Shown piece after piece: positions 11,316 through 30,804 of a stretch of DNA of 64,000 nucleotides. This DNA comes from Streptomyces sp. NBC_01717 (GTDB taxonomy: Bacteria > Actinomycetota > Actinomycetes > Streptomycetales > Streptomycetaceae), in NCBI RefSeq assembly GCF_036248255.1, contig NZ_CP109178.1:7259001-7323000 (forward strand), written 5' to 3'. A model generated the notes under the pieces. The model was given only the letters and a program-made list of their open reading frames with translations. It had not been told where the DNA came from and ran no database searches. Made by a program: the position numbers and the translations under genes. Numbering within the stretch: the first letter of the stretch is position 1; each line of letters begins with the position of its first letter.

Positions 11316-11402
11316 ATTTCGCCGTGTCCGGCCCTTCCTCGTCGCGGCCGTCTGAGTGTCATGTGAAGGTAAAAACTGCTGCTGCACGACCCGTTGACCG
11401 GC

Positions 11403-11420
11403 ATACCGTCCGGTCAGTAC
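11403..11420. promoter_or_regulatory. Possible TetR-type site upstream of MFS transporter
   Basis: ATACCGTCCGGTCAGTAC matches the operator half ATACCG-N-C-Y-GGT found at 25085 and 30691 (13 of 18 positions), and lies 67 bp before the start at 11487. Palindromic symmetry is imperfect, though ACCGT and ACGGT arms flank it. Weak candidate. Confidence 0.35.
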
Positions 11421-11486: not shown

Positions 11487-12824
11487 ATGGACACGTCACC
11501 ATCCGCCAGCCCGGGCACCACCGAGACCGTCCCGACCCCCACCGAGACGCGGGCCCGCCGCAAGGTGGCCACCGCCGCAGCGCTCGCATCCGCGGTGGAG
11601 TGGTACGACTACTTCGTTTTCGGCATCGCCGCCGCCCTGGTCCTCGGAGACCTCTACTTCCCCGCGGGCAGTGGCTCCGCCGGTGTCCTCGCCGCGTTCG
11701 CGACCTTCGCCGTGGGCTTCCTGGCCCGTCCGCTCGGCGGCATCATCGCGGGCCAGCTCGGCGACAAGCGCGGTCGCAAACCCATGCTGGTCCTCGCGCT
11801 CACCCTGATGGGCGTGGCCACCACGGGCATCGGCCTGCTTCCCACGTACGAGACGATCGGCATCGCCGCTCCGGTGCTGCTCGTCACCCTGCGCGTCGTC
11901 CAGGGCATCGCAGTCGGCGCCCAGTGGGGCGGCGCCATGCTGATGGCCACCGAATACGCCCCCGAGGGCAAGCGCGGCGTCTACGGAAGCCTCGTCCAAC
12001 TCGGCGTCCCCATCGGTGTGGTGACCGCCAACACCGTCTTCCTCGCCGCAGGAGCCCTCACCAGTGACAGCGAGTTCGCCGCCTGGGGCTGGCGGGTGCC
12101 GTTCCTGGTCGGCCTGCTGGTCCTGGTCCTCGCCTGGTACATCCACACGCGCGTCGAGGAGACCCCCGAGTTCCGCGAGGCCGAGAAGGAACTGGCCGAG
12201 CAGGAGGCGAGCCGCTCCGCGCGCTCCCCGCTGCGCACCATCGTGCGGGAGCACCTCGGCACGGTCTTCCTCGCGGGCGGCTCGTTCGCCGTGAACACCG
12301 CGACCTTCTACATCATCATCACCGGCGTCCTGGACTACACGACCCGTGAGCTCGGCATGAAGCGCGAGGCCGTCCTCACGGTCTCGCTCTGCATCAGCCT
12401 CACCCAGCTCGTCCTGATACCGGCGTCGGCGGCGTTGTCCGACCGCATCGGGCGGCTTCGGATCTACGCGCTCGGGGCGGCCGGGCTCGCCGTGTGGGCG
12501 GTGCCGATGTTCCTGCTCATCGACACCAAGTCGCTGCTCTGGATGGCCGTCGGCACCTTTGTCACCAGCTGTTTCCTCAGCATCATGTACGGGCCGCAGG
12601 CGGCGTTGTTCGCCGAGCTGTTCACGGCCGAGATGCGCTACACCGGCGCCTCGCTCGGCTACCAGATCGCGGCGGTGTTCGGCGGCGGCCTGGCCCCGTT
12701 CGTGATGGTGCTGCTGCTGGAGGCGACGGGCACGTCGATGGCGGTGGCTGCCTACATCATAGGCTTGGCGGTCATCGCACTGGTCTCCATCAAGGTCCTT
12801 GCGGGGCGGGCGAGTTCACGCTGA
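11487..12824 (+). CDS. MFS transporter, metabolite:H+ symporter (MHS) type
   Basis: 445 residues from ATG 11487. An in-frame extension to 11394 has no hydrophobic content and would cover the presumptive promoter. About 12 membrane segments; the MHS-type N-terminus ASAVEWYDYFVFG and the MFS loop motif GDKRGRKPML follow TM2-3. The family imports organic acids such as citrate, shikimate, benzoate or ketoglutarate by proton symport. Its position behind aldehyde and alcohol dehydrogenase genes suggests uptake of the carbon source that they process, but the intervening hairpin makes it a separate transcript. Confidence 0.88.
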   Translation: MDTSPSASPGTTETVPTPTETRARRKVATAAALASAVEWYDYFVFGIAAALVLGDLYFPAGSGSAGVLAAFATFAVGFLARPLGGIIAGQLGDKRGRKPMLVLALTLMGVATTGIGLLPTYETIGIAAPVLLVTLRVVQGIAVGAQWGGAMLMATEYAPEGKRGVYGSLVQLGVPIGVVTANTVFLAAGALTSDSEFAAWGWRVPFLVGLLVLVLAWYIHTRVEETPEFREAEKELAEQEASRSARSPLRTIVREHLGTVFLAGGSFAVNTATFYIIITGVLDYTTRELGMKREAVLTVSLCISLTQLVLIPASAALSDRIGRLRIYALGAAGLAVWAVPMFLLIDTKSLLWMAVGTFVTSCFLSIMYGPQAALFAELFTAEMRYTGASLGYQIAAVFGGGLAPFVMVLLLEATGTSMAVAAYIIGLAVIALVSIKVLAGRASSR

Positions 12825-16508: not shown

Positions 16509-17660
16509 ATGAACCTGGAGCTCAGCGAGGAGCAGGATGCCGTCCGGCAGCTCGCCAAGGACTTCGTCGCCCGCGAGATCACCCCGCATGTCGTCGAGTG
16601 GGACCGCGCCGAGAATGTCGACAGGCCGATCGTCAAGAAGCTGGGTTCCCTCGGCTTCCTCGGGCTGACCGTCCCGGAGGAGTACGGCGGCTCGGGCGGT
16701 GATCACCTGGCGTACTGCCTGGTCACCGAGGAACTCGGCCGCGGCGACTCCTCGGTCCGCGGTATCGTCTCGGTCTCCCTGGGGCTGGTCGCCAAGACCA
16801 TCGCCACCTGGGGCGACGAGGAGCAGAAGCGGCAGTGGCTGCCCCCGCTCACCGCGGGCGAGGCGATCGGCTGCTTCGGCCTCACCGAGCCCGGCACCGG
16901 CTCGGACGCCGGCAACCTGACGACGAAGGCCGTCCGCGACGGCGACTCGTACGTCATCAACGGCACCAAGATGTTCATCACCAACGGCACCTGGGCCGAC
17001 GTCGTACTGCTCTTCGCCCGCACCGGCGACGCCCCCGGCCACAAGGGCATATCCGCATTCCTGGTGCCCACCGACACTCCCGGTCTCACCCGCCGCACCA
17101 TCCACGGCAAGCTCGGTCTGCGCGGCCAGGCCACTGCCGAAGTGGTCCTGGAGGACGTCCGCGTCCCCGCCACCACGCTCCTGGGCCCCGAGGGCAAGGG
17201 CTTCTCCATCGCCATGTCCGCCCTCGCCAAGGGCCGGATGTCGGTCGCGGCCGGCTGTGTCGGCATCGCACAGGCCGCCCTCGACGCCGCCGTCGGCTAC
17301 GCGGGCGAACGTGAGCAGTTCGGCAAGTCCATCGCGAGCTACCAGCTCGTCCAGGAACTGATCAGCGATATCGCGGTGGACGTGGACGCCGCCCGGCTGC
17401 TGACCTGGCGGGTCGCCGACCTGATCGACCGCGGCGAGGACTTCGCCACCGCGGCGTCCAAGGCGAAGCTCTTCGCCTCCGAGGCCGCCGTCCGTGCAGC
17501 CAACAACGCCCTCCAGGTCTTCGGCGGTTACGGCTACATCGACGAGTACCCGGTCGGCAAGCTGCTGCGCGACGCCCGGGTGATGACGCTCTACGAAGGC
17601 ACCAGCCAGATCCAGAAGCTGATCATCGGCCGTGCCCTGACGGGGGTCTCCGCCTTCTGA
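16509..17660 (+). CDS. Acyl-CoA dehydrogenase
   Basis: 383 residues, the standard length. FAD/substrate-binding signature CFGLTEPGTGSDAGNL near 120-135, YVINGTKMFITNG near 150, and the C-terminal domain ending VMTLYEGTSQIQKLIIGRAL with the likely catalytic base Glu363. Catalyses the alpha,beta-desaturation of an acyl-CoA (short/medium-chain or branched type) and passes electrons to ETF. Divergent from a TetR gene with an operator palindrome between. Probably part of fatty-acid or branched-acid degradation. Confidence 0.93.
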   Translation: MNLELSEEQDAVRQLAKDFVAREITPHVVEWDRAENVDRPIVKKLGSLGFLGLTVPEEYGGSGGDHLAYCLVTEELGRGDSSVRGIVSVSLGLVAKTIATWGDEEQKRQWLPPLTAGEAIGCFGLTEPGTGSDAGNLTTKAVRDGDSYVINGTKMFITNGTWADVVLLFARTGDAPGHKGISAFLVPTDTPGLTRRTIHGKLGLRGQATAEVVLEDVRVPATTLLGPEGKGFSIAMSALAKGRMSVAAGCVGIAQAALDAAVGYAGEREQFGKSIASYQLVQELISDIAVDVDAARLLTWRVADLIDRGEDFATAASKAKLFASEAAVRAANNALQVFGGYGYIDEYPVGKLLRDARVMTLYEGTSQIQKLIIGRALTGVSAF

Positions 17661-18120: not shown

Positions 18121-18744
18121 ATGAGCACGGCGGATGATACCGGCGGCGACGGTACGCCGTGGGGCGAGGTGACGCCCGAGGCGGCCAGACGGCTCCTCGT
18201 CGCGGCCGTCGACGCCTTCGCCGAGCGCGGGTACCACGCGACCACCACCCGGGACATCGCGGGCCGCGCCGGGATGAGCCCTGCCGCGCTCTACATCCAC
18301 TACAAGACGAAGGAAGAGCTGCTCCACCGGATCAGCAGGATCGGTCACGACCGGGCCCTGCTCCTCCTGGAGACGGCCGCGGACAGCGAAGGCACGGCGT
18401 CCGAGCGGCTCGCCCACGCCGTGCGGTCCTTCGTCCGCTGGCACGCGGAAGGGCACACCACCGCCCGCGTGGTCCAGTACGAACTCGACGCCCTCGGCCC
18501 GGAGCACCGCACCGAGATCGTCGCGCTGCGGCGCAGGAGCGACGCGGTGATCCGACGGATCATCAGTGAAGGCGTGGAGGCGGGGGAGTTCGACGTCCCC
18601 GACATCCCGGGCACCACGCTGGCCGTGCTCTCGCTCTGCATCGATGTGGCGCGCTGGTTCAGCGCGCAGGGGAGCCGGACGCCCGACGAGGTCGGCGCGC
18701 TCTACGCCGACCTCGTCCTGCGGATGGTCGCGGCCCAGCGGTAG
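18121..18744 (+). CDS. TetR-family transcriptional regulator
   Basis: 207 residues from ATG 18121 (GTG 18115 or 18088 possible; GGAAGGGG precedes). The N-terminal helix-turn-helix contains FAERGYHATTTRDIAGRAGMSPAALYIHYKTKEELLHRI at about 30-66, and the C-terminal ligand-binding domain resembles regulators of fatty-acid/acyl-CoA genes. Convergent with the MaoC gene, and both have the same 16-bp palindromic sequence in their promoter regions, so it is the natural candidate regulator of both. Confidence 0.88.
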   Translation: MSTADDTGGDGTPWGEVTPEAARRLLVAAVDAFAERGYHATTTRDIAGRAGMSPAALYIHYKTKEELLHRISRIGHDRALLLLETAADSEGTASERLAHAVRSFVRWHAEGHTTARVVQYELDALGPEHRTEIVALRRRSDAVIRRIISEGVEAGEFDVPDIPGTTLAVLSLCIDVARWFSAQGSRTPDEVGALYADLVLRMVAAQR

Positions 18745-23672: not shown

Positions 23673-24950
23673 TCACCGGTACTGCAAGTACCTCTTGCGT
23701 ACCGCCCGGAACGCGGTGAGATCCGCCGCCCAGGCCCCCACCACCTCATCCGTGTCCGCGCCCGCGTCGATCATCGTGCGGACCCGCGTGTTGCCGGTGA
23801 GCTTGTCGATCCAGTTGTCCGAGCGCCACGCGAACCCGCTCCACGTCTGCTTCGCCGTCACCAGGAGAGCGATCCCGGTGCGTACCGGGTCGAAGACCTC
23901 CCGGTCCTGCACATGCAGTTGCACGCCGCCGACCGTCTTCCCCTGGAACTTGGAGAACGTCGGCGCGAAGTACGCCTCGCGGAACGCGACTCCGGGCAGG
24001 TCTAGCGCGTTCGCGGCCGCCGCCCACCGGTGGTCGATGCCTTCCGCGCCGAGCAGTTCGAACGGCCGCGTGGTGCCGCGCCCCTCGGACAGGTTCGTAC
24101 CCTCGAAGAGGCAGGTCCCGGAGTACACCAGCGCGGTGTCCGGCGTCGGCATGTTGGGGCTCGGCGGCACCCACGGCAGTCCGGTCTCGTCGAAGAAGTC
24201 CGAGCGCCGCCATCCCGACATCTTCACGATGTCCAGTTCGACCGGCTGCTCGGCCAGGAACTCCGCGTTGAAGAGCAGCGCGAGCTCCGTGACCGTCATG
24301 CCGTGCGCCTGCGCGATCTCCCGGCGCCCCACGAAGGTCGAGAACGCCGGGTCGAGGACCGGCCCGAGCGCCGCCCGCCCGGTCACCGGGTTCGGCCGGT
24401 CCAGCACGACGAACCGCTTGCCCGCGAGCGCCGCCGCCTCCATGCAGTCGTAGAGCGTCCAGATGTACGTGTAGAAGCGTGCGCCCGCGTCCTGGATGTC
24501 GAAGACGATCGTGTCCACGCCGGACGCGGTGAAGACATCGGCGAGTGGCTGCCCGCTCTTCAAGTACGTGTCGTAGACGGGGAGTCCGGTGGCCGGATCG
24601 TCGTAGCGCCCCTCGGAGCCGCCCGCCTGCGCGGTGCCGCGGAAGCCGTGCTCGGGTCCGAAGACCGCGACCAGGTCCACCCGCTCGTCCGGGTGCATCA
24701 CGTCGACGATGTGGCGCACGTCGGACGTGATCCCGGTCGGGTTGGTGACGACCCCGACCTTCTGCCCCTTCAGCAGTGCGTAGCCGTCCGCGGCCAGCCG
24801 GTCGAAGCCGGTGAGGAGCCGGTTCCGCCCCGCGCCGTGCCCCTTCCCGGCCACGGGTCCCGCTGCGGCGGTCCCGGTTCCCGCAGTGGTCGCCGCGAGG
24901 GCTCCCACCGCACTGCCGGCGGCCAGCAAACCACGTCTGGACAGGCTCAT
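23673..24950 (-). CDS. Exported exo-beta-N-acetylmuramidase NamZ-like (DUF1343)
   Basis: 425 residues from ATG 24950 (GGAGGT 7 bp upstream; the longer in-frame extension to 25067 is not conserved-looking). Tat-type signal SRRGLLAAGSAVGALAA at 4-20. The DUF1343 body contains GLLxGFDRLAADG-like start, VGVVTNPTGITSD near 70, VAVFGPEHGFRG near 98, FDIQDAGARFYTYIWTL near 150, and VLDRPNPVTG near 185. The family founder NamZ removes MurNAc from the non-reducing end of peptidoglycan fragments. Likely peptidoglycan turnover outside the cell; convergent with the secreted acylase. Confidence 0.86.
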   Translation of the reverse strand: MSLSRRGLLAAGSAVGALAATTAGTGTAAAGPVAGKGHGAGRNRLLTGFDRLAADGYALLKGQKVGVVTNPTGITSDVRHIVDVMHPDERVDLVAVFGPEHGFRGTAQAGGSEGRYDDPATGLPVYDTYLKSGQPLADVFTASGVDTIVFDIQDAGARFYTYIWTLYDCMEAAALAGKRFVVLDRPNPVTGRAALGPVLDPAFSTFVGRREIAQAHGMTVTELALLFNAEFLAEQPVELDIVKMSGWRRSDFFDETGLPWVPPSPNMPTPDTALVYSGTCLFEGTNLSEGRGTTRPFELLGAEGIDHRWAAAANALDLPGVAFREAYFAPTFSKFQGKTVGGVQLHVQDREVFDPVRTGIALLVTAKQTWSGFAWRSDNWIDKLTGNTRVRTMIDAGADTDEVVGAWAADLTAFRAVRKRYLQYR

Positions 24951-25084
24951 TCGGCTACCTCCATGATCGCTCCGACTGTCATGGTCACGCACGCTAGCGC
25001 GCGCAAGCCCTCCGCGGAACGAGCCGGACGCGACTGCTGTGACAGGAGTGGCGACAACCAGGGCCAACCCCCTTCCCCGACGAC

Positions 25085-25102
25085 ATACCGACTGGTTAGT
25101 CT
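25085..25102. promoter_or_regulatory. TetR-type operator copy 1, before SDR/acyl-CoA ligase/tetR operon
   Basis: ATACCGACTGGTTAGTCT lies 34 bp upstream of the ATG at 25136. The 16 bases CGACATACCGACTGGT (25081-25096) recur exactly, inverted, at 30697-30712 in the promoter of the APH/acyl-CoA dehydrogenase operon. The right half of the palindrome is degenerate here. Confidence 0.7.
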
Positions 25103-25135
25103 GCTGGGGAAGTCGGCTGAGAGAGGCGGGACCCG

Positions 25136-25900
25136 ATGAGTACGGTGCAGGGCGCGGGCGTAGTGGTCACCGGAGCCGGAGGCGGCATCGGCGCCGCTCT
25201 GGCCCGCAGATTCGCCGCGGAAGGCGCCAGGGTCGTCGTCAACGACCTCGACGAGGCCCGGATCAAGACGCTTGCCGAGGAGATCGGCGGCACCGCCGTC
25301 GCCGGTGACGCCTCACGGATCGTGGATGCCGCCCGGGACGCTCTGGACGGCACCGTCGACATCTACTGCGCCAACGCGGGCCTTGCCTCGCCCGGCGACG
25401 TCTTCGCCGACGAGGAGGTCTGGGCGGCGGCCTGGGACGTCAATGTGATGGCCCACGTCCGCGCGGCCCGGGCGCTGCTGCCGGACTGGCTGGAGCGCGG
25501 CAGCGGCCGGTTCGTCTCCACCGCGTCCGCCGCCGGTCTGCTGACGATGATCGGCGCGGCGCCGTACAGCGTCACCAAGCACGGGGTCGTCGCCTTCGCC
25601 GAATGGCTCTCGCTCACCTACCGCCACCGCGGCGTCAAGGTCCACGCGATCTGCCCGCAGGGCGTACGTACGGACATGCTCACCGCCGCGGGTTCGGCTG
25701 GTGAGCTCGTGCTCGCCCCCAGCGCCATCGAGCCGGAGGCCGTCGCCGACGCGCTCTTCGACGCCATGGCCGAGGACCGCTTCCTCGTCCTGCCGCACCC
25801 CGAGGTCGCCGGGTACTACCGGGCGCGCACCAAGGACACCGACCACTGGCTCACCAACATGAACCACCTTCAGCAGAAGTGGGAGGAGACCGGCGCATGA
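25136..25900 (+). CDS. Short-chain dehydrogenase/reductase (candidate 4-oxoacyl-CoA reductase, LvaD-like role)
   Basis: 254 residues; classical SDR with cofactor motif TGAGGGIG at 12-19, NAG at 80-82, Ser131, and Tyr144-x3-Lys148 (PYSVTK). Asp37 after the second strand (VVVNDL) favours NAD(H). First gene of an operon: its stop overlaps the acyl-CoA ligase start by 4 bp (ATGA), followed by tetR. By analogy with the levulinate pathway it may interconvert 4-oxo- and 4-hydroxyacyl-CoA; that assignment is inference from cluster content. Confidence 0.9.
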   Translation: MSTVQGAGVVVTGAGGGIGAALARRFAAEGARVVVNDLDEARIKTLAEEIGGTAVAGDASRIVDAARDALDGTVDIYCANAGLASPGDVFADEEVWAAAWDVNVMAHVRAARALLPDWLERGSGRFVSTASAAGLLTMIGAAPYSVTKHGVVAFAEWLSLTYRHRGVKVHAICPQGVRTDMLTAAGSAGELVLAPSAIEPEAVADALFDAMAEDRFLVLPHPEVAGYYRARTKDTDHWLTNMNHLQQKWEETGA

Positions 25901-27579
25901 CCCAGTCCGACACCGACGCCGCCACCGGGTCCATCTACGCGGCAAAGCCCTGGATCTCCCTGCTCAGCGAGGCCCAGCGGGCTCCCGTCAGCCCCGCCGA
26001 GACCTTGGTGCACGCCTTTCGCGCCTCCGTCGCCCGCACCCCCGAGCACCCGGCGCTCGCCTACTTCGACGGGCGCCTCAGCTACCGCGAGACCGATGCG
26101 CTCTCCGACTCGGTGGCCGGTCATCTCGCCGCGAAGGGCCTGGAGCGCGGCGACCGGGTCGCGATCATGCTGCAGAACTCCCCGCAGTTCGTACTCGCGC
26201 TGCTCGGCGCCTGGAAGGCGGGGGCGACCGTCGTCCCGCTCAACCCGATGTACAAGTCCGGAGAGGTCGGCCATGTACTGAAGGACGCCGAGGTCACCGT
26301 GCTGATCTGCGCGGACCGGGCATGGGAGTCGTATCTGCGGGACACCGCGGCCGCCGCCCCGACCGTACGGATCGCCGTCACCGCCTGCGAGCTCGACCTC
26401 CAGAGCCAGAACGACGACCGGGTCCTGAACTTCGAGCGGCTGCCGGCCCCCGAGGACGCCGACGACCTGATGGCCGTCGCCCGCCGCGGGCTCGCCGCCC
26501 CCGAAGGCCGCGAGCTCACCGCCGCCGACGTGGCGCTGATCAGCTACACCTCCGGGACCAGCGGCACCCCCAAGGGCGCCATGAACTCCCACGGCAACAT
26601 CATGGTCAACGCCGAGCGCCAGCGGACCGGACACCCGGTCGCCGAGGGCTCCTCGTACTTCGCGCTCGCCCCGCTCTTCCACATCACCGGCATGGTGTGC
26701 CAGCTGGCCGCCTGTCTCACCAACGCGGGCACCCTCGTCCTCGCGTACCGCTTCCACCCCGGTGTCGTCCTCGACGCGTTCGCCGAGCACCGCCCCGCGT
26801 ACACCGTCGGCCCGTCGACCGCCTTCATGGCGCTCGCCGCCCACCCCGATGTGACCCGTGAGCACTTCGCCTCGTTCCAGGTGATCTCCTCCGGCGGTGC
26901 ACCGCTGCCGCCCGCGCTCGTGGAGAAATTCCGTGCGGGCTTCGGCCCGTACATCCGCAACGGCTACGGCCTCACCGAGTGCACGGCGCCCTGCGCCGCC
27001 GTACCGCCCGAGCGGGAGGCCCCCGTCGACCCGGTCTCCGGGACGCTCTCCGTCGGCGTTCCCGGCCCGGACACAATCGTCCGGATCCTCGACGAGAACG
27101 GCGACGAGGTGCCGTTCGGCGAACAGGGCGAGATCGCCGTCCGCGGCCCCCAGGTCGTCTCCGGCTACTGGCGGCTGCCCGACGCCACCGCCGCCGCCTT
27201 CCCGGACGGTGAGCTGCGGACGGGCGACATCGGCTTCATGGACCGCGACGGCTGGCTGTACGTCGTCGACCGCAAGAAGGACATGATCAACGCCTCCGGC
27301 TTCAAGGTCTGGCCGCGCGAGGTGGAAGATGTCCTGTACACCCACCCGGCGGTACGGGAGGCGGCCGTCGTCGGCGTCCCCGACGCCTACCGCGGCGAGA
27401 CCGTCCGGGCGTACGTCAGCCTGCGGCCCGGTGCGGTGGTCGAGCCCGGAGAGCTGGGCGCGTACTGCAAGGAGCGGCTCGCCGCCTACAAGTACCCGCG
27501 CGAGGTCGAGATCCTGGCTGAACTCCCGAAGACGGCAAGTGGGAAGATCCTCAGGCGGGAACTGCGTTCAGCGCAGTAG
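25897..27579 (+). CDS. AMP-forming acyl-CoA synthetase (ANL superfamily)
   Basis: 560 residues from ATG 25897, overlapping the SDR stop. ANL core motifs: ISYTSGTSGTPKGAMNSH (P-loop-like A3) near 213, ISSGGAPLPP near 333, NGYGLTEC (A5) near 358, RTGDIGFMDRDGWLYVVDRKKDMI (A7/A8) near 440-463, and C-terminal Lys in PKTASGKILRREL (A10). Activates a carboxylic acid to acyl-CoA via acyl-AMP. It would supply the CoA thioester for the SDR, kinase and dehydrogenase in the same regulon (LvaE-like role, inferred). Chain length preference unknown. Confidence 0.92.
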   Translation: MTQSDTDAATGSIYAAKPWISLLSEAQRAPVSPAETLVHAFRASVARTPEHPALAYFDGRLSYRETDALSDSVAGHLAAKGLERGDRVAIMLQNSPQFVLALLGAWKAGATVVPLNPMYKSGEVGHVLKDAEVTVLICADRAWESYLRDTAAAAPTVRIAVTACELDLQSQNDDRVLNFERLPAPEDADDLMAVARRGLAAPEGRELTAADVALISYTSGTSGTPKGAMNSHGNIMVNAERQRTGHPVAEGSSYFALAPLFHITGMVCQLAACLTNAGTLVLAYRFHPGVVLDAFAEHRPAYTVGPSTAFMALAAHPDVTREHFASFQVISSGGAPLPPALVEKFRAGFGPYIRNGYGLTECTAPCAAVPPEREAPVDPVSGTLSVGVPGPDTIVRILDENGDEVPFGEQGEIAVRGPQVVSGYWRLPDATAAAFPDGELRTGDIGFMDRDGWLYVVDRKKDMINASGFKVWPREVEDVLYTHPAVREAAVVGVPDAYRGETVRAYVSLRPGAVVEPGELGAYCKERLAAYKYPREVEILAELPKTASGKILRRELRSAQ

Positions 27580-27616
27580 AGCAGCGGAATCATCGTACGG
27601 AAGGCAGGTGGCGGCA

Positions 27617-28210
27617 ATGGCCAGAACGACGGACGGGAACGATGCCCCGGTCCCGCAGCGGCTGCTGGCCGCCGCCACCCGGCTCTTCGCCGAGCACGGT
27701 TACGACCGCACGTCGGTCCAGGAGATCGTCGAGGCGGCGGGCGTCACCAAGGGGGCGCTGTACCACTACTTCGGGTCCAAGGAGGACCTCCTCCAGGAGG
27801 TCTACGCCCGGGTGCTGCGGCTCCAGCAGGAGCGGCTCGACGCCTTCGCCGACGCCGAGGCGCCGGTCGAGCAGCGGCTGCGGGACGCGGCTGCGGATGT
27901 CGTCGTCACGACGATCGAGAACCTCGACGACGCGTCGATCTTCTTCCGGTCCATGCACCATCTGAGCCCGGAGAAGAACAAGCAGGTGCGGGTGGAGCGG
28001 CGCCGCTACCACGAGCGGTTCCGGGCGCTGGTCGAAGAGGGGCAGCAGAGCGGGGTGTTCTCGACGGCGACGCCGGCGGATCTGGTGGTGGACTACCACT
28101 TCGGTTCGGTGCACCACCTGTCGACGTGGTACCGACCGGACGGCCCGCTCAGCCAGCAGGAAGTCGCCGACCATCTGGCCGACCTGCTGCTGCGTGCGCT
28201 GCGACCGTAG
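27617..28210 (+). CDS. TetR-family regulator of the ligase/SDR/kinase/dehydrogenase regulon (predicted)
   Basis: 197 residues from ATG 27617. Helix-turn-helix FAEHGYDRTSVQEIVEAAGVTKGALYHYFGSKEDLLQEV at about 19-56; the C-terminal domain includes SIFFRSMHHLSPEKNKQVRVERRRYHERF, similar to acyl-CoA-responsive TetR proteins. Third gene of the operon, 37 bp after the ligase. The palindromes at 25085 and 30691 have the form of TetR operators, and this is the only regulator in the cluster, so autoregulation plus control of the facing operon is the simplest model. Confidence 0.88.
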   Translation: MARTTDGNDAPVPQRLLAAATRLFAEHGYDRTSVQEIVEAAGVTKGALYHYFGSKEDLLQEVYARVLRLQQERLDAFADAEAPVEQRLRDAAADVVVTTIENLDDASIFFRSMHHLSPEKNKQVRVERRRYHERFRALVEEGQQSGVFSTATPADLVVDYHFGSVHHLSTWYRPDGPLSQQEVADHLADLLLRALRP

Positions 28211-28230
28211 GCACCGGGGTGCGGTAGTTG

Positions 28231-28365
28231 CCGCTCCGTCCTCGACCGCCGGGCGGCCTTGATCCTCCCCGCCCGTGACCAGCCCGTTCGTCCTCCATCG
28301 CCGGACGGGCTCGTGATGCCCGCACGACAGCGTCGAGCCCGTCCCGCGTTCGAGGACGGAGGCGG
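28231..28365. repeat. Composite inverted repeat between convergent genes
   Basis: Outer arms CCGCTCCGTCCTCGA (28231-28245) and TCGAGGACGGAGGCGG (28350-28365) are complementary with one bulged base. Inside are smaller GC-rich arms around CGCCGGACGGGCT (28289-28301) and GAGCCCGTCC (28335-28344). The internal motif resembles a dispersed intergenic palindrome common in Streptomyces genomes. Likely a bidirectional terminator between tetR and the acyl-CoA dehydrogenase. Confidence 0.6.
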
Positions 28366-28405
28366 CGACCGGACGCACCCGGTCACCGCCCGTCCCGGCC
28401 ACCGC

Positions 28406-29620
28406 CTACAGGTACCGCTTGATCTCGCGCCGCGCCAGCGACCTCTGGTGCACCTCGTCGGGCCCGTCCGCCAGCCGCAGCGTCCGCGCCGCCGCCCACA
28501 GCTCCGCCAGCGGGAAGTCCTGGCTGACGCCGCCCGCACCGTGCAGTTGCACCGCCTGGTCGAGGATGTCGACCACCGCGCGCGGGGTGGCGATCTTGAT
28601 GGCCTGGATCTCCGTGTGGGCACCCCGGTTGCCGACCGTGTCCATCAGCCACGCCGTCTTCAGCACCAGCAGCCGCAGCTGCTCCACCGTGACCCGCGCG
28701 TCCGCGATCCAGTTCTGCACGACGCCCTGCTGGGCGAGCGGCTTGCCGAAGGCCGTACGGGACACCGCCCGCCTGCACATCAGCTCGATGGCCCGCTCGG
28801 CCATCCCGATCAGCCGCATGCAGTGGTGGATCCGGCCCGGACCGAGACGCGCCTGGGCGATGGCGAAGCCGCCGCCCTCCTCGCCGATCAGGTTCGCGGC
28901 GGGCACCCGCACATCGGTGAACACGACTTCCGCGTGACCGCCGTGGTAGTGGTCCTCGTACCCGTACACCTGCATCGCGCGCCGCACTTCGAGGCCGGGC
29001 GTGTCGCGCGGGACCAGGATCATCGACTGCTGGCGGCGGATGTCGGGTCCGTCCGGGTCGGTCTTGCCCATCACGATGAAGATCCGGCAGTCCGGGTTCA
29101 TCGCCCCGGAGATGTACCACTTGCGGCCGTTGATGACGTAGTCGTCACCGTCCCGCACGATCCGGGTCTCGATGTTGGTCGCGTCCGACGACGCCACCTC
29201 GGGCTCGGTCATGGCGAACGCCGACCGGATCTCACCGGCGAGCAGCGGCTCCAGCCACTGCTTCTTCTGCTCCTCCGTGCCGAACTGGAAGAGCACCTCC
29301 ATGTTGCCGGTGTCCGGCGCCGCGCAGTTCAGCGCGGTCGGCGCCAACTGCGGGGAGCGGCCGGTGATTTCGGCGAGCGGAGCGTACTGGAGGTTGGACA
29401 GCCCGGCACCGTACTCCGCGTCGGGCAGGAAAAGGTTCCACAGGCCCTGCTTGCGCGCCTCCGCCTTCAGGTCCTCGACGACCTGCGGGGTGTCCCACGG
29501 GGAGGCGAGCAGTGCGCGCTGCTCGTCCGCGATCTTCTCGGCCGGGAGGACATGCTCGTCCATGAAGGCGAGCAGCTTGGTGCGCAGCTCTTCCGTGCGG
29601 GCGTCGAATGCGAAATCCAT
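28406..29620 (-). CDS. Acyl-CoA dehydrogenase, ACAD10/11-LvaC type
   Basis: 404 residues, slightly longer than classical ACADs. Motifs: AFAMTEPEVASSDATNIETR near 137, VINGRKWYISGAMNPDCRIFIVMG near 165, QVYGYEDHYHGGHAEVVFTDVRVPAANLIG near 210-240, and the C-terminal LADGPDEVHQRSLARREI in place of the YEGTSQIQ of standard ACADs; this tail is typical of the ACAD10/11 branch. Lies 7 bp downstream of an APH-type kinase gene. In mammals the two activities are fused in one protein. Expected to eliminate phosphate from 4-phosphoacyl-CoA to give enoyl-CoA (inference). Confidence 0.9.
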   Translation of the reverse strand: MDFAFDARTEELRTKLLAFMDEHVLPAEKIADEQRALLASPWDTPQVVEDLKAEARKQGLWNLFLPDAEYGAGLSNLQYAPLAEITGRSPQLAPTALNCAAPDTGNMEVLFQFGTEEQKKQWLEPLLAGEIRSAFAMTEPEVASSDATNIETRIVRDGDDYVINGRKWYISGAMNPDCRIFIVMGKTDPDGPDIRRQQSMILVPRDTPGLEVRRAMQVYGYEDHYHGGHAEVVFTDVRVPAANLIGEEGGGFAIAQARLGPGRIHHCMRLIGMAERAIELMCRRAVSRTAFGKPLAQQGVVQNWIADARVTVEQLRLLVLKTAWLMDTVGNRGAHTEIQAIKIATPRAVVDILDQAVQLHGAGGVSQDFPLAELWAAARTLRLADGPDEVHQRSLARREIKRYL

Positions 29621-29627
29621 GGGCTGA

Positions 29628-30650
29628 TCAGCCTTCCTGAAGGGTGGTGAGGCCGTGCTCGATGAAGACGGGGACGAGATCGCCGATCCGGTCGAAGCCG
29701 GCGCCGACCGTCTGGCCGAGGGTGTAGCGGTAGTGGATGCCCTCCAGGATCACGGCGAGCTTGAACCACGCGAACGCCGTGTACCAGGAGATGGCGGAGG
29801 TGTCCCGGCCGGAGCGGGCGGCGTAGCGCTCGATCAGTTCGGCGGGGGCGGGGTGGCCGGCCGCGCCGCTGGTGGTGGAGACCGGGGACTTGGGCAGACC
29901 GAGATCGGAGCTGTACATCACCAGGAGGCCGAGGTCGGTCAGCGGGTCGCCGAGTGTCGACATCTCCCAGTCGAGGACGGCCTTGATCTCGTCGTTTGAG
30001 CCGATCAGCACGTTGTCCAGGCGGTAGTCGCCGTGGATGACGGTGGGCGCGGGGGAGACGGGCAGCTCGCGCCCGAGCGCGGCGTGGAGCTCGTCGATGC
30101 CGGGCAGCTCGCGGTTGCGGGAGGCGTCCAGCTGCTTGCCCCAGCGGCGCAGCTGCCGGTCGAGGAAGCCCTCGGGGCGTCCGAAGTCGGCGAGCCCCAC
30201 CGACTCGGGGTCCACCGCGTGCAGTTCCACCAGCGTGTCGACCAGCCCGAGGACGGCGGCCCGGGTGCGCTCGGGGCCGAGCGGGGCGAGCTGCTCGGCG
30301 GTGCGGTACGGGGTCCCCTCGACGTACTCCATGAGGTAGAACTGCGACCCGATGACCGAGTCGTCCTCGCAGAGCAGCACCGGCTCGGGCACCGGCACGG
30401 CGGTCGGATGCAGTGCGCTGATCACCCGGTGCTCGCGCTTCATGTCGTGCGCGGTGGCGAGGACATGGCCGAGCGGCGGCCGGCGCACGACCCAGTGGCC
30501 GGTGCCGTCCGTGACGATGTACGTCAGGTTGGAGCGACCGCCCTCGATGAGGCGGGCTTCGAGCGGTCCGTTCACCAGACCCGGCCGCTCGCGGTCGAGA
30601 TATCCGCGGAGCCGGTCCAGGTCGAGACCTGGCGGGTGGACTGAGCTCAT
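29628..30650 (-). CDS. APH/ACAD10-type phosphotransferase (candidate 4-hydroxyacyl-CoA kinase, LvaA-like)
   Basis: 340 residues from ATG 30650 (GGAGGTG 7 bp upstream; the in-frame extension to 30929 would run through the promoter palindrome). Aminoglycoside-phosphotransferase fold: YIVTDGTGHWVVRRPP near 37, LMEYVEGTPY near 100, Brenner motif VIHGDYRLDNVL near 200 and metal-binding VLDWEMSTLGDPLTDLG near 222. This subfamily pairs with acyl-CoA dehydrogenases, as in LvaA/LvaC or vertebrate ACAD11, and phosphorylates a hydroxyacyl-CoA rather than an antibiotic. First gene of a two-gene operon with a TetR-type site 41 bp upstream. Confidence 0.9.
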   Translation of the reverse strand: MSSVHPPGLDLDRLRGYLDRERPGLVNGPLEARLIEGGRSNLTYIVTDGTGHWVVRRPPLGHVLATAHDMKREHRVISALHPTAVPVPEPVLLCEDDSVIGSQFYLMEYVEGTPYRTAEQLAPLGPERTRAAVLGLVDTLVELHAVDPESVGLADFGRPEGFLDRQLRRWGKQLDASRNRELPGIDELHAALGRELPVSPAPTVIHGDYRLDNVLIGSNDEIKAVLDWEMSTLGDPLTDLGLLVMYSSDLGLPKSPVSTTSGAAGHPAPAELIERYAARSGRDTSAISWYTAFAWFKLAVILEGIHYRYTLGQTVGAGFDRIGDLVPVFIEHGLTTLQEG

Positions 30651-30690
30651 CGTGCGCACCTCCGGGGTGAAAAAGACGTCGAAGGTCATG

Positions 30691-30708
30691 ATGCCGACCA
30701 GTCGGTAT
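30691..30708. promoter_or_regulatory. TetR-type operator copy 2, before APH kinase/acyl-CoA dehydrogenase operon
   Basis: ATGCCGACCAGTCGGTAT is an 18-bp palindrome with 7 of 9 pairs matched (core CCGAC-N2-GTCGG). The flanking 16-mer matches 25081-25096 exactly in inverted orientation. It also lies about 100 bp before the divergent glucarate dehydratase gene. Confidence 0.75.
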
Positions 30709-30804
30709 GTCGTCCAGTGAACTCCTGGATTCCCCTTGTGCGGACTCAGGCCCCAGCGGTCCCGGACTCTGGCGCTCGGTCCTGTCTCTGAATAAGGTTC
30801 ACGT

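Follow-up and report, generated by a model that had tools for sequence, protein, structure and literature searches.

Two convergent transcription units in Streptomyces sp. NBC_01717 quite probably belong to a Streptomyces-wide regulon for the catabolism of 4-hydroxyacyl-CoA, which would employ enzymes of the ACAD10/11 lineage, operate without LvaB and be controlled by a PfmR-like repressor. This assignment is derived from sequence comparison of a stretch of 64,000 nucleotides (assembly GCF_036248255.1, contig NZ_CP109178.1, positions 7,259,001 to 7,323,000), referred to as the window and numbered from its first nucleotide. The plus strand carries the genes of a short-chain dehydrogenase/reductase (SDR, 25136-25900, Pfam adh_short), an AMP-binding acyl-CoA ligase (25897-27579, PF00501/PF13193) and a predicted TetR repressor (27617-28210); the start of the ligase gene overlaps the stop of the SDR gene (25897 vs 25900). 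On the minus strand an APH-fold kinase gene (29628-30650, PF01636, E = 8.7e-58) is followed downstream by the gene of an acyl-CoA dehydrogenase (ACAD, 28406-29620). Gene calls and Pfam domains agree on these two facing units, as they had been described in a first-pass annotation of the window.

The dehydrogenase is 56.9% identical to mouse ACAD11 (E = 3.8e-141) and 36.8% identical to LvaC of the Pseudomonas levulinate pathway. For mouse ACAD11, PMC12440821 describes R626, H634 and R637 as contacting the 4-phosphate in modelling and their exchange for Ala or Leu as most disruptive, with H597 mattering less; D753 is the catalytic base, and a redox-active FAD is required. All five residues have identical counterparts in the window dehydrogenase and in the aligned ACAD11-like and LvaC-like sequences. 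In contrast, two other acyl-CoA dehydrogenases, Thermus TTHB022 and the product of window gene 16509-17660, possess none of R626, H634, R637 and H597 and carry a Glu at the position of D753. The latter gene, an ordinary ACAD, lies near a second regulator of the TetR_C_24 type (18124-18744), which is 30% identical to the TetR of the locus. Within the genus, R626, H634, R637 and D753 are invariant in 41/41 loci; in a second sample of named loci (both samples are described below) H634, R637 and D753 were found in 72/72 assessable sequences and R626 in 72/73, with one Leu. LvaC has equivalents of R626, H634, R637 and D753 as well, so these residues mark the chemistry and not the clade. They suggest that the dehydrogenase probably acts on 4-phosphoacyl-CoA with elimination of phosphate. 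In a tree of 17 sequences chosen by hand, LvaC clusters with Thermus TTHB015 and an Azospirillum protein (support 0.977). The window dehydrogenase is placed among the ACAD11-like set, which is split from the Lva group and the ordinary dehydrogenases (1.000) and whose internal order is weakly resolved. Identity, phosphate-binding residues and tree position thus bear out the ACAD10/11-type label of the first-pass annotation, but its parallel with LvaC was not upheld by the phylogeny that it had proposed as a check.

The kinase retains the catalytic Asp (D220), the following Asn (N225), R176 and the Arg preceding the αC Glu, all of which are conserved among its relatives. R86 of PMC12440821 was matched by its description; in the present count the numbered position is not an Arg. 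The identity to LvaA amounts to 33% over 219 residues and to 23.3% over the alignment. In a rootless tree of 13 sequences, calculated with no outgroup, the kinases LvaA, Azospirillum and Thermus form a group of their own (1.000) to which the window kinase does not belong. The earlier comparison of this protein with LvaA is therefore not supported either. We regard it as a predicted 4-hydroxyacyl-CoA kinase.

Both promoters contain the same sequence element. The 16-mer CGACATACCGACTGGT is found exactly at 25081-25096 (plus strand) and 30697-30712 (minus strand), and the window holds three matches with up to three mismatches vs 0.57 expected by chance. The two sites are inverted on the map and have the same orientation relative to their own genes, 40-62 nucleotides before the start codons. 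The palindrome reported earlier around the second site is present as the 18-mer ATGCCGACCAGTCGGTAT at 30691-30708, but it is imperfect, with one arm mismatch. From pattern matches and conservation the operator core was delimited as ACCGACTGGTTAGT upstream of the SDR gene (25087-25100, plus strand) and as ACCGACTGGTCGGC upstream of the kinase gene (30693-30706, minus strand). The aligned sites are sharp-edged. At the SDR promoter a TTCC-like block lies upstream and a TAGTCT block overlaps the 3' half-site; in the window these correspond to a putative -35 box TTCCCC (25073-25078, partly conserved columns) and a putative -10 box TAGTCT (25097-25102, conserved columns; 38 aligned sites, plus strand). 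At the kinase promoter a CTGGAC block precedes the operator and CATCAT stands at its downstream end, giving a putative -35 region at 30712-30717 (conserved columns) and a putative -10 box at 30688-30693 (mostly conserved; 41 aligned sites, minus strand). With these boxes, operators lying between or over them would fit simple repression.

A kinase match (E <= 1e-40) was found in 58/61 genomes of the genus, a few of them fragmentary, and stretches of 17 kb were taken from 40 of these 58 for comparison of the loci. The dehydrogenase and the kinase are present in all 40, the TetR in 39, the SDR in 37 and the ligase in 32 (one partial), and the layout is unchanged. A second sample consisted of 80 named loci retrieved via the TetR, which shares at least some strains with the first and in which presence was judged by identity cuts (at least 60% for the ligase). 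The five genes occur together in 53 of these loci; another 19 lack the ligase alone, and the remaining eight show different gaps, some of them on short contigs. The SDR is present in 79/80. The TetR itself is 97% identical to its counterpart in Streptomyces sp. NBC_01669. The operator core with at most one mismatch precedes the kinase gene in 41/41 loci (the 40 and the window) and the SDR gene in 36 of 38 loci with an SDR match, the remaining two having 2 and 3 mismatches. With a strict pattern, SDR-type sites were found in 38/41 and kinase-type sites in 41/41 loci. In the named loci the motif lies upstream of the SDR gene in 78/79 and of the kinase gene in 72/72 assessable cases. Since they are conserved in this way, the sites are not due to chance. 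In one locus with no SDR match (L059) the operator precedes the TetR gene itself. Directly beside the SDR promoter lies a gene for a NamZ-type exo-N-acetylmuramidase (23673-25067), as in most Streptomyces loci read; this is probably neighbourhood only.

The closest solved match of the TetR is 3vpr, which we take to be PfmR. Thermus PfmR (TTHB023) is 35% identical to it over 184 residues, and ACCGACCGGTTGGT and ACCGACCGGTCGGT are found upstream of the Thermus gene. The locus TetR resembles PfmR in sequence, in its TetR_C_24 domain and in the ACCGACYGGTYGGT-like operator at its own promoter. According to PMC7022988, TACCGACCGNTNGGTN was the earlier consensus of PfmR, a broader selected consensus was bound at 2 nM and the sites overlap promoters. 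That the two units constitute one TetR regulon, as first supposed, is supported by the common, conserved TetR-like operator; binding of the TetR to it is a prediction. Deletion of pfmR raises TTHB015 and TTHB014 (LogFC 1.68 and 1.86; Table 5 of PMC7022988). These two proteins are 50% identical to LvaC and 37% identical to LvaA, respectively. Because they are Lva-type by sequence, the published phenylacetic or fatty acid label of the PfmR operon may hide a 4-hydroxyacyl-CoA operon. On plasmid pTT27 of Thermus thermophilus (L136, 5044-13746) the kinase and dehydrogenase genes of this operon are followed by a DUF6285 gene and a histidine phosphatase gene. The same operator type occurs in Cytobacillus, 62 nucleotides before the SDR gene of a run SDR-ACAD-TetR-thioesterase-APH-FabG-MaoC-MaoC, and in Nonomuraea before the TetR gene and before the ACAD gene.

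In the genome of the window's strain (G000) only four sites have at most one mismatch, two of them being the locus sites, vs none for a backwards control pattern. At up to two mismatches the 28 sites are hardly richer than the 22 of the control, so the idea of a wide regulon was dropped and only sites with at most one mismatch were taken as candidates. A survey of 26 genomes at this threshold gave a match in 22, including every one of the 16 from the window's genus. The third target in G000 lies 67 nucleotides before a gene for a PF00144 esterase resembling family VIII (G000:C1:7440734-7441882), approximately 150 kb from the locus and 118 kb past the right end of the window. Its nearest solved protein is fenoxaprop-p-ethyl hydrolase. 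Esterase matches occur in 30/61 genomes of the genus, and all 30 loci were read, our own included (L148-L177). Twenty-five of these esterases share at least 68% identity, and an exact site lies within 200 nucleotides upstream in 24 of the 25; the five more distant ones have no exact site in that interval. The upstream neighbour in G000, a histidine phosphatase gene, is present in only 8/25 of the esterase loci. The site therefore follows the esterase and not its neighbourhood, and the phosphatase was rejected as a member of the regulon. A home-made helix-turn-helix model, which finds four TetR proteins in the window, detected none within about 9 kb on each side of the esterase (19 kb) in 4/4 genomes. 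We infer that a remote TetR, specifically that of the locus, serves this site. The Thermus serine hydrolase TTHB021 was considered as a relative of the esterase and discarded, as the two have no recognisable similarity.

Related sites were also seen in other surroundings. Within the window, CATACCGTCCGGTCAGT at 11402-11418 precedes a gene for a major facilitator superfamily transporter (11487-12824), which itself follows probable aldehyde and alcohol dehydrogenase genes; the site is found in 3/4 relatives with the transporter gene, with a changed centre. Perfect operator matches stand beside a gene that by eye resembles LLM-class oxidoreductases in two further genomes of the genus (L184, position ~5238; L185, position ~5089).

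From these data we propose the following regulatory and catalytic sequence. The PfmR-like TetR would repress both promoters by binding the conserved site ACCGACYGGTYRGY between the -35 and -10 boxes, and a build-up of the pathway's acyl-CoA would release it. The esterase, which has the same operator, may liberate the acid from esters or lactones, and the ligase, where present, would activate the free acid. The kinase would then phosphorylate the 4-hydroxyl group of 4-hydroxyacyl-CoA, and the dehydrogenase would remove the phosphate by means of its redox-active FAD to yield 2-enoyl-CoA for β-oxidation; both steps are modelled on the residue-level homology to ACAD10/11. The SDR is a putative NAD-linked hydroxyacyl dehydrogenase whose step is uncertain and might be the oxidation of 3-hydroxyacyl-CoA or the interconversion of 4-hydroxy and 4-oxo compounds.

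The first-pass annotation had viewed the locus as a complete LvaA/C/D/E-like set, in which case the SDR would reduce 4-oxoacyl-CoA like LvaD and levulinate or other 4-oxo acids would be degraded. The enzyme types are indeed the same, and the ligase shares 33% identity with LvaE. Such ligases are promiscuous, however, and this one is missing from 8/40 loci and from 25/80 named loci (at the cut of 60% identity), so it is not a core part. The SDR has the catalytic residues Ser131, Tyr144 and Lys148, which are present in 117/117 aligned sequences (window included), and Asp37, found in 115/115 assessable ones. An Asp at the end of the second strand marks NAD-type cofactor use in SDR enzymes. LvaD, which is 28% identical over 191 residues, has an Arg in place of Asp37; a reductase role like that of LvaD is therefore doubtful, and the SDR is not LvaD-like. 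The closest solved relative of the SDR is a (3R)-hydroxyacyl-CoA dehydrogenase. The reference for the Lva proteins was a complete lva operon from a Pseudomonas plasmid (L140) in which lvaB is annotated; LvaB matches PF19802 (DUF6285). A DUF6285 gene adjoins the kinase gene in all three Lva-group loci but was detected in 0/61 genomes of the genus, including the window's own, and in 2/14 control genomes, which agrees with the early remark that no LvaB-like protein is visible. LvaB has no occurrence in PMC11342911, where ACAD10/11 and Burkholderia orthologues are active; its absence here is thus to be expected. The term DUF6285 was not found in the papers of the literature searched. LvaF, LvaG and a sigma-54 regulator were not recognised by eye among the window's genes, for which no aimed search was made. 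Taken with the positions of the dehydrogenase and the kinase outside the LvaC and LvaA clades, the residue at the SDR cofactor site and the missing LvaB lead us to reject orthology to the Lva proteins, and a levulinate pathway of this type is unlikely. Of the substrates first suggested we consider 4-hydroxyacyl-CoA more plausible; levulinate is probably not the principal one, because both enzymes fall outside the Lva clades, the SDR is not LvaD-like and the ligase is not core.

Three further explanations were weighed. That the pair consists of a plain β-oxidation dehydrogenase beside an unrelated small-molecule kinase would agree with Pfam, which returned generic families only, and with NCBIfam, where no model exceeded its cut-off for the locus proteins among the models listed. 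This is very improbable in view of the catalytic Asp instead of Glu and the Arg/His/Arg pocket, near-invariant in relatives, the conserved active site of the kinase and the operator common to both units. It is rather more conceivable, though still somewhat unlikely, that the pair acts on a special Streptomyces hydroxyacyl-CoA, for example a steroid-, terpenoid- or polyketide-derived 4-hydroxyacyl-CoA, and not on simple 4-hydroxy fatty acids. The window kinase does not group with the ACAD11 and Cupriavidus kinases, and on a Streptomyces plasmid (L144, 4853-13203) a related kinase/dehydrogenase pair adjoins ketosynthase and AfsA-like hotdog genes, a hint of biosynthetic use; the near-universal occurrence of the set in the genus suggests a general substrate instead. 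Finally, the sites could belong to another TetR, with the operon's own TetR binding elsewhere. A TetR_C_24 paralogue is encoded about 9 kb away, and related sites occur in other places, one of them a paralogous cluster of genome G001 that has a different TetR. We consider this distinctly unlikely: the operator precedes the unit of the locus TetR, in L059 and Nonomuraea it stands before the TetR gene itself, and a very similar palindrome is the target of the Thermus homologue (PMC7022988).

Several observations speak against the proposed 4-hydroxyacyl-CoA regulon. The second TetR_C_24 protein of the window could recognise related sites. The window kinase is only 35% identical to the kinase domain of ACAD11, and the kinase tree, which has no root and no firm deep order, places the Lva group next to the mouse kinase with weak support (0.398). 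Neither a MaoC nor a thiolase gene is present in the two units, and the Nonomuraea locus has no kinase, SDR or ligase match in 18.5 kb. Near the ACADs of Cupriavidus pHG1 and Comamonas the gene table, which is incomplete, lists no phosphotransferase. Among 149 Actinomycetota genomes drawn for comparison, four contain the TetR (E <= 1e-30), all of them of the window's genus, 47 the dehydrogenase (E <= 1e-130) and 59 the kinase (E <= 1e-55). As read from lists of their places, the kinase lies within 5 kb of the dehydrogenase in only eight of the 47, four of them of the window's genus; in other genera the two are mostly apart, and the pairing is therefore lineage-specific. Among these 149 genomes the window-type SDR was near the dehydrogenase, as read from such lists, only in the four members of the genus and, as a second copy, in G196; it was rejected as a general partner. 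The SDR/ACAD link recurs on plasmids of Tsukamurella and Deinococcus and in the paralogous cluster of G001, where the operator lies between an alpha/beta hydrolase and a thiolase gene, followed by TetR, SDR (47%) and ACAD (53%, truncated at the end of the locus) genes (L186, 4210-10001). In favour of the proposed regulon, FabG, MaoC or thiolase genes accompany related kinase/ACAD pairs in Tsukamurella, Deinococcus and Rhodococcus.

A broader idea can be put forward tentatively. PfmR-type repressors with a ACCGACYGGTYGGT-like operator might be dedicated sensors of ancient origin that respond to 4-hydroxyacyl-CoA or to its 4-phospho form and have persisted in Actinomycetota, Bacillota and Deinococcota, with the enzymes under their control being exchanged: an LvaABC-clade set with DUF6285 in Thermus and LvaB-free ACAD10/11-like enzymes in Streptomyces and Cytobacillus. 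In Streptomyces the regulon would include the distant family VIII esterase, feeding in 4-hydroxy acids. The Nonomuraea locus makes this less likely, because it has no kinase match.

If the 4-hydroxyacyl-CoA regulon proposed here is correct, it would give a role to a near-universal Streptomyces gene set for which we found no function assigned in the literature searched. The ACAD10/11 route, reported for the mammalian enzymes in 2024-2025, would then exist as a regulated bacterial pathway without LvaB and with a ready genetic system, a likely pathway for Thermus PfmR would be at hand, and a biosensor for acyl-CoA, built on a short conserved operator, would be predicted.

Among known systems, the Pseudomonas lva operon likewise combines a kinase and an ACAD-family enzyme with an SDR and a CoA ligase. 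The Streptomyces set differs in its kinase and ACAD clades, in having no DUF6285/LvaB, in a distant NAD-type SDR and in a TetR instead of a PrpR-type regulator. The lva-like cluster of Pseudomonas citronellolis LA18T resembles it in that no lvaB was found there, as stated in PMC6692424, but encodes LvaC- and LvaD-type enzymes (78% and 67% identical to those of P. putida) and an LvaR-type regulator. The PfmR operon of Thermus thermophilus pTT27 has a homologous TetR and a very similar palindrome, and likewise contains phosphotransferase, ACAD, SDR and AMP-binding genes; its kinase and ACAD, however, are of the Lva clade, and DUF6285 and histidine phosphatase genes follow. The mammalian route, in which 4-hydroxy fatty acids are burned after phosphate tagging by ACAD10 and ACAD11 (PMC12440821 and PMC11342911), differs in that the Streptomyces kinase, 35% identical, and dehydrogenase are separate proteins under a TetR. 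It agrees with the Streptomyces set in the similarity of the dehydrogenase, in all tested phosphate-pocket residues, in the kinase fold and catalytic residues and with regard to LvaB, which PMC11342911 does not mention.

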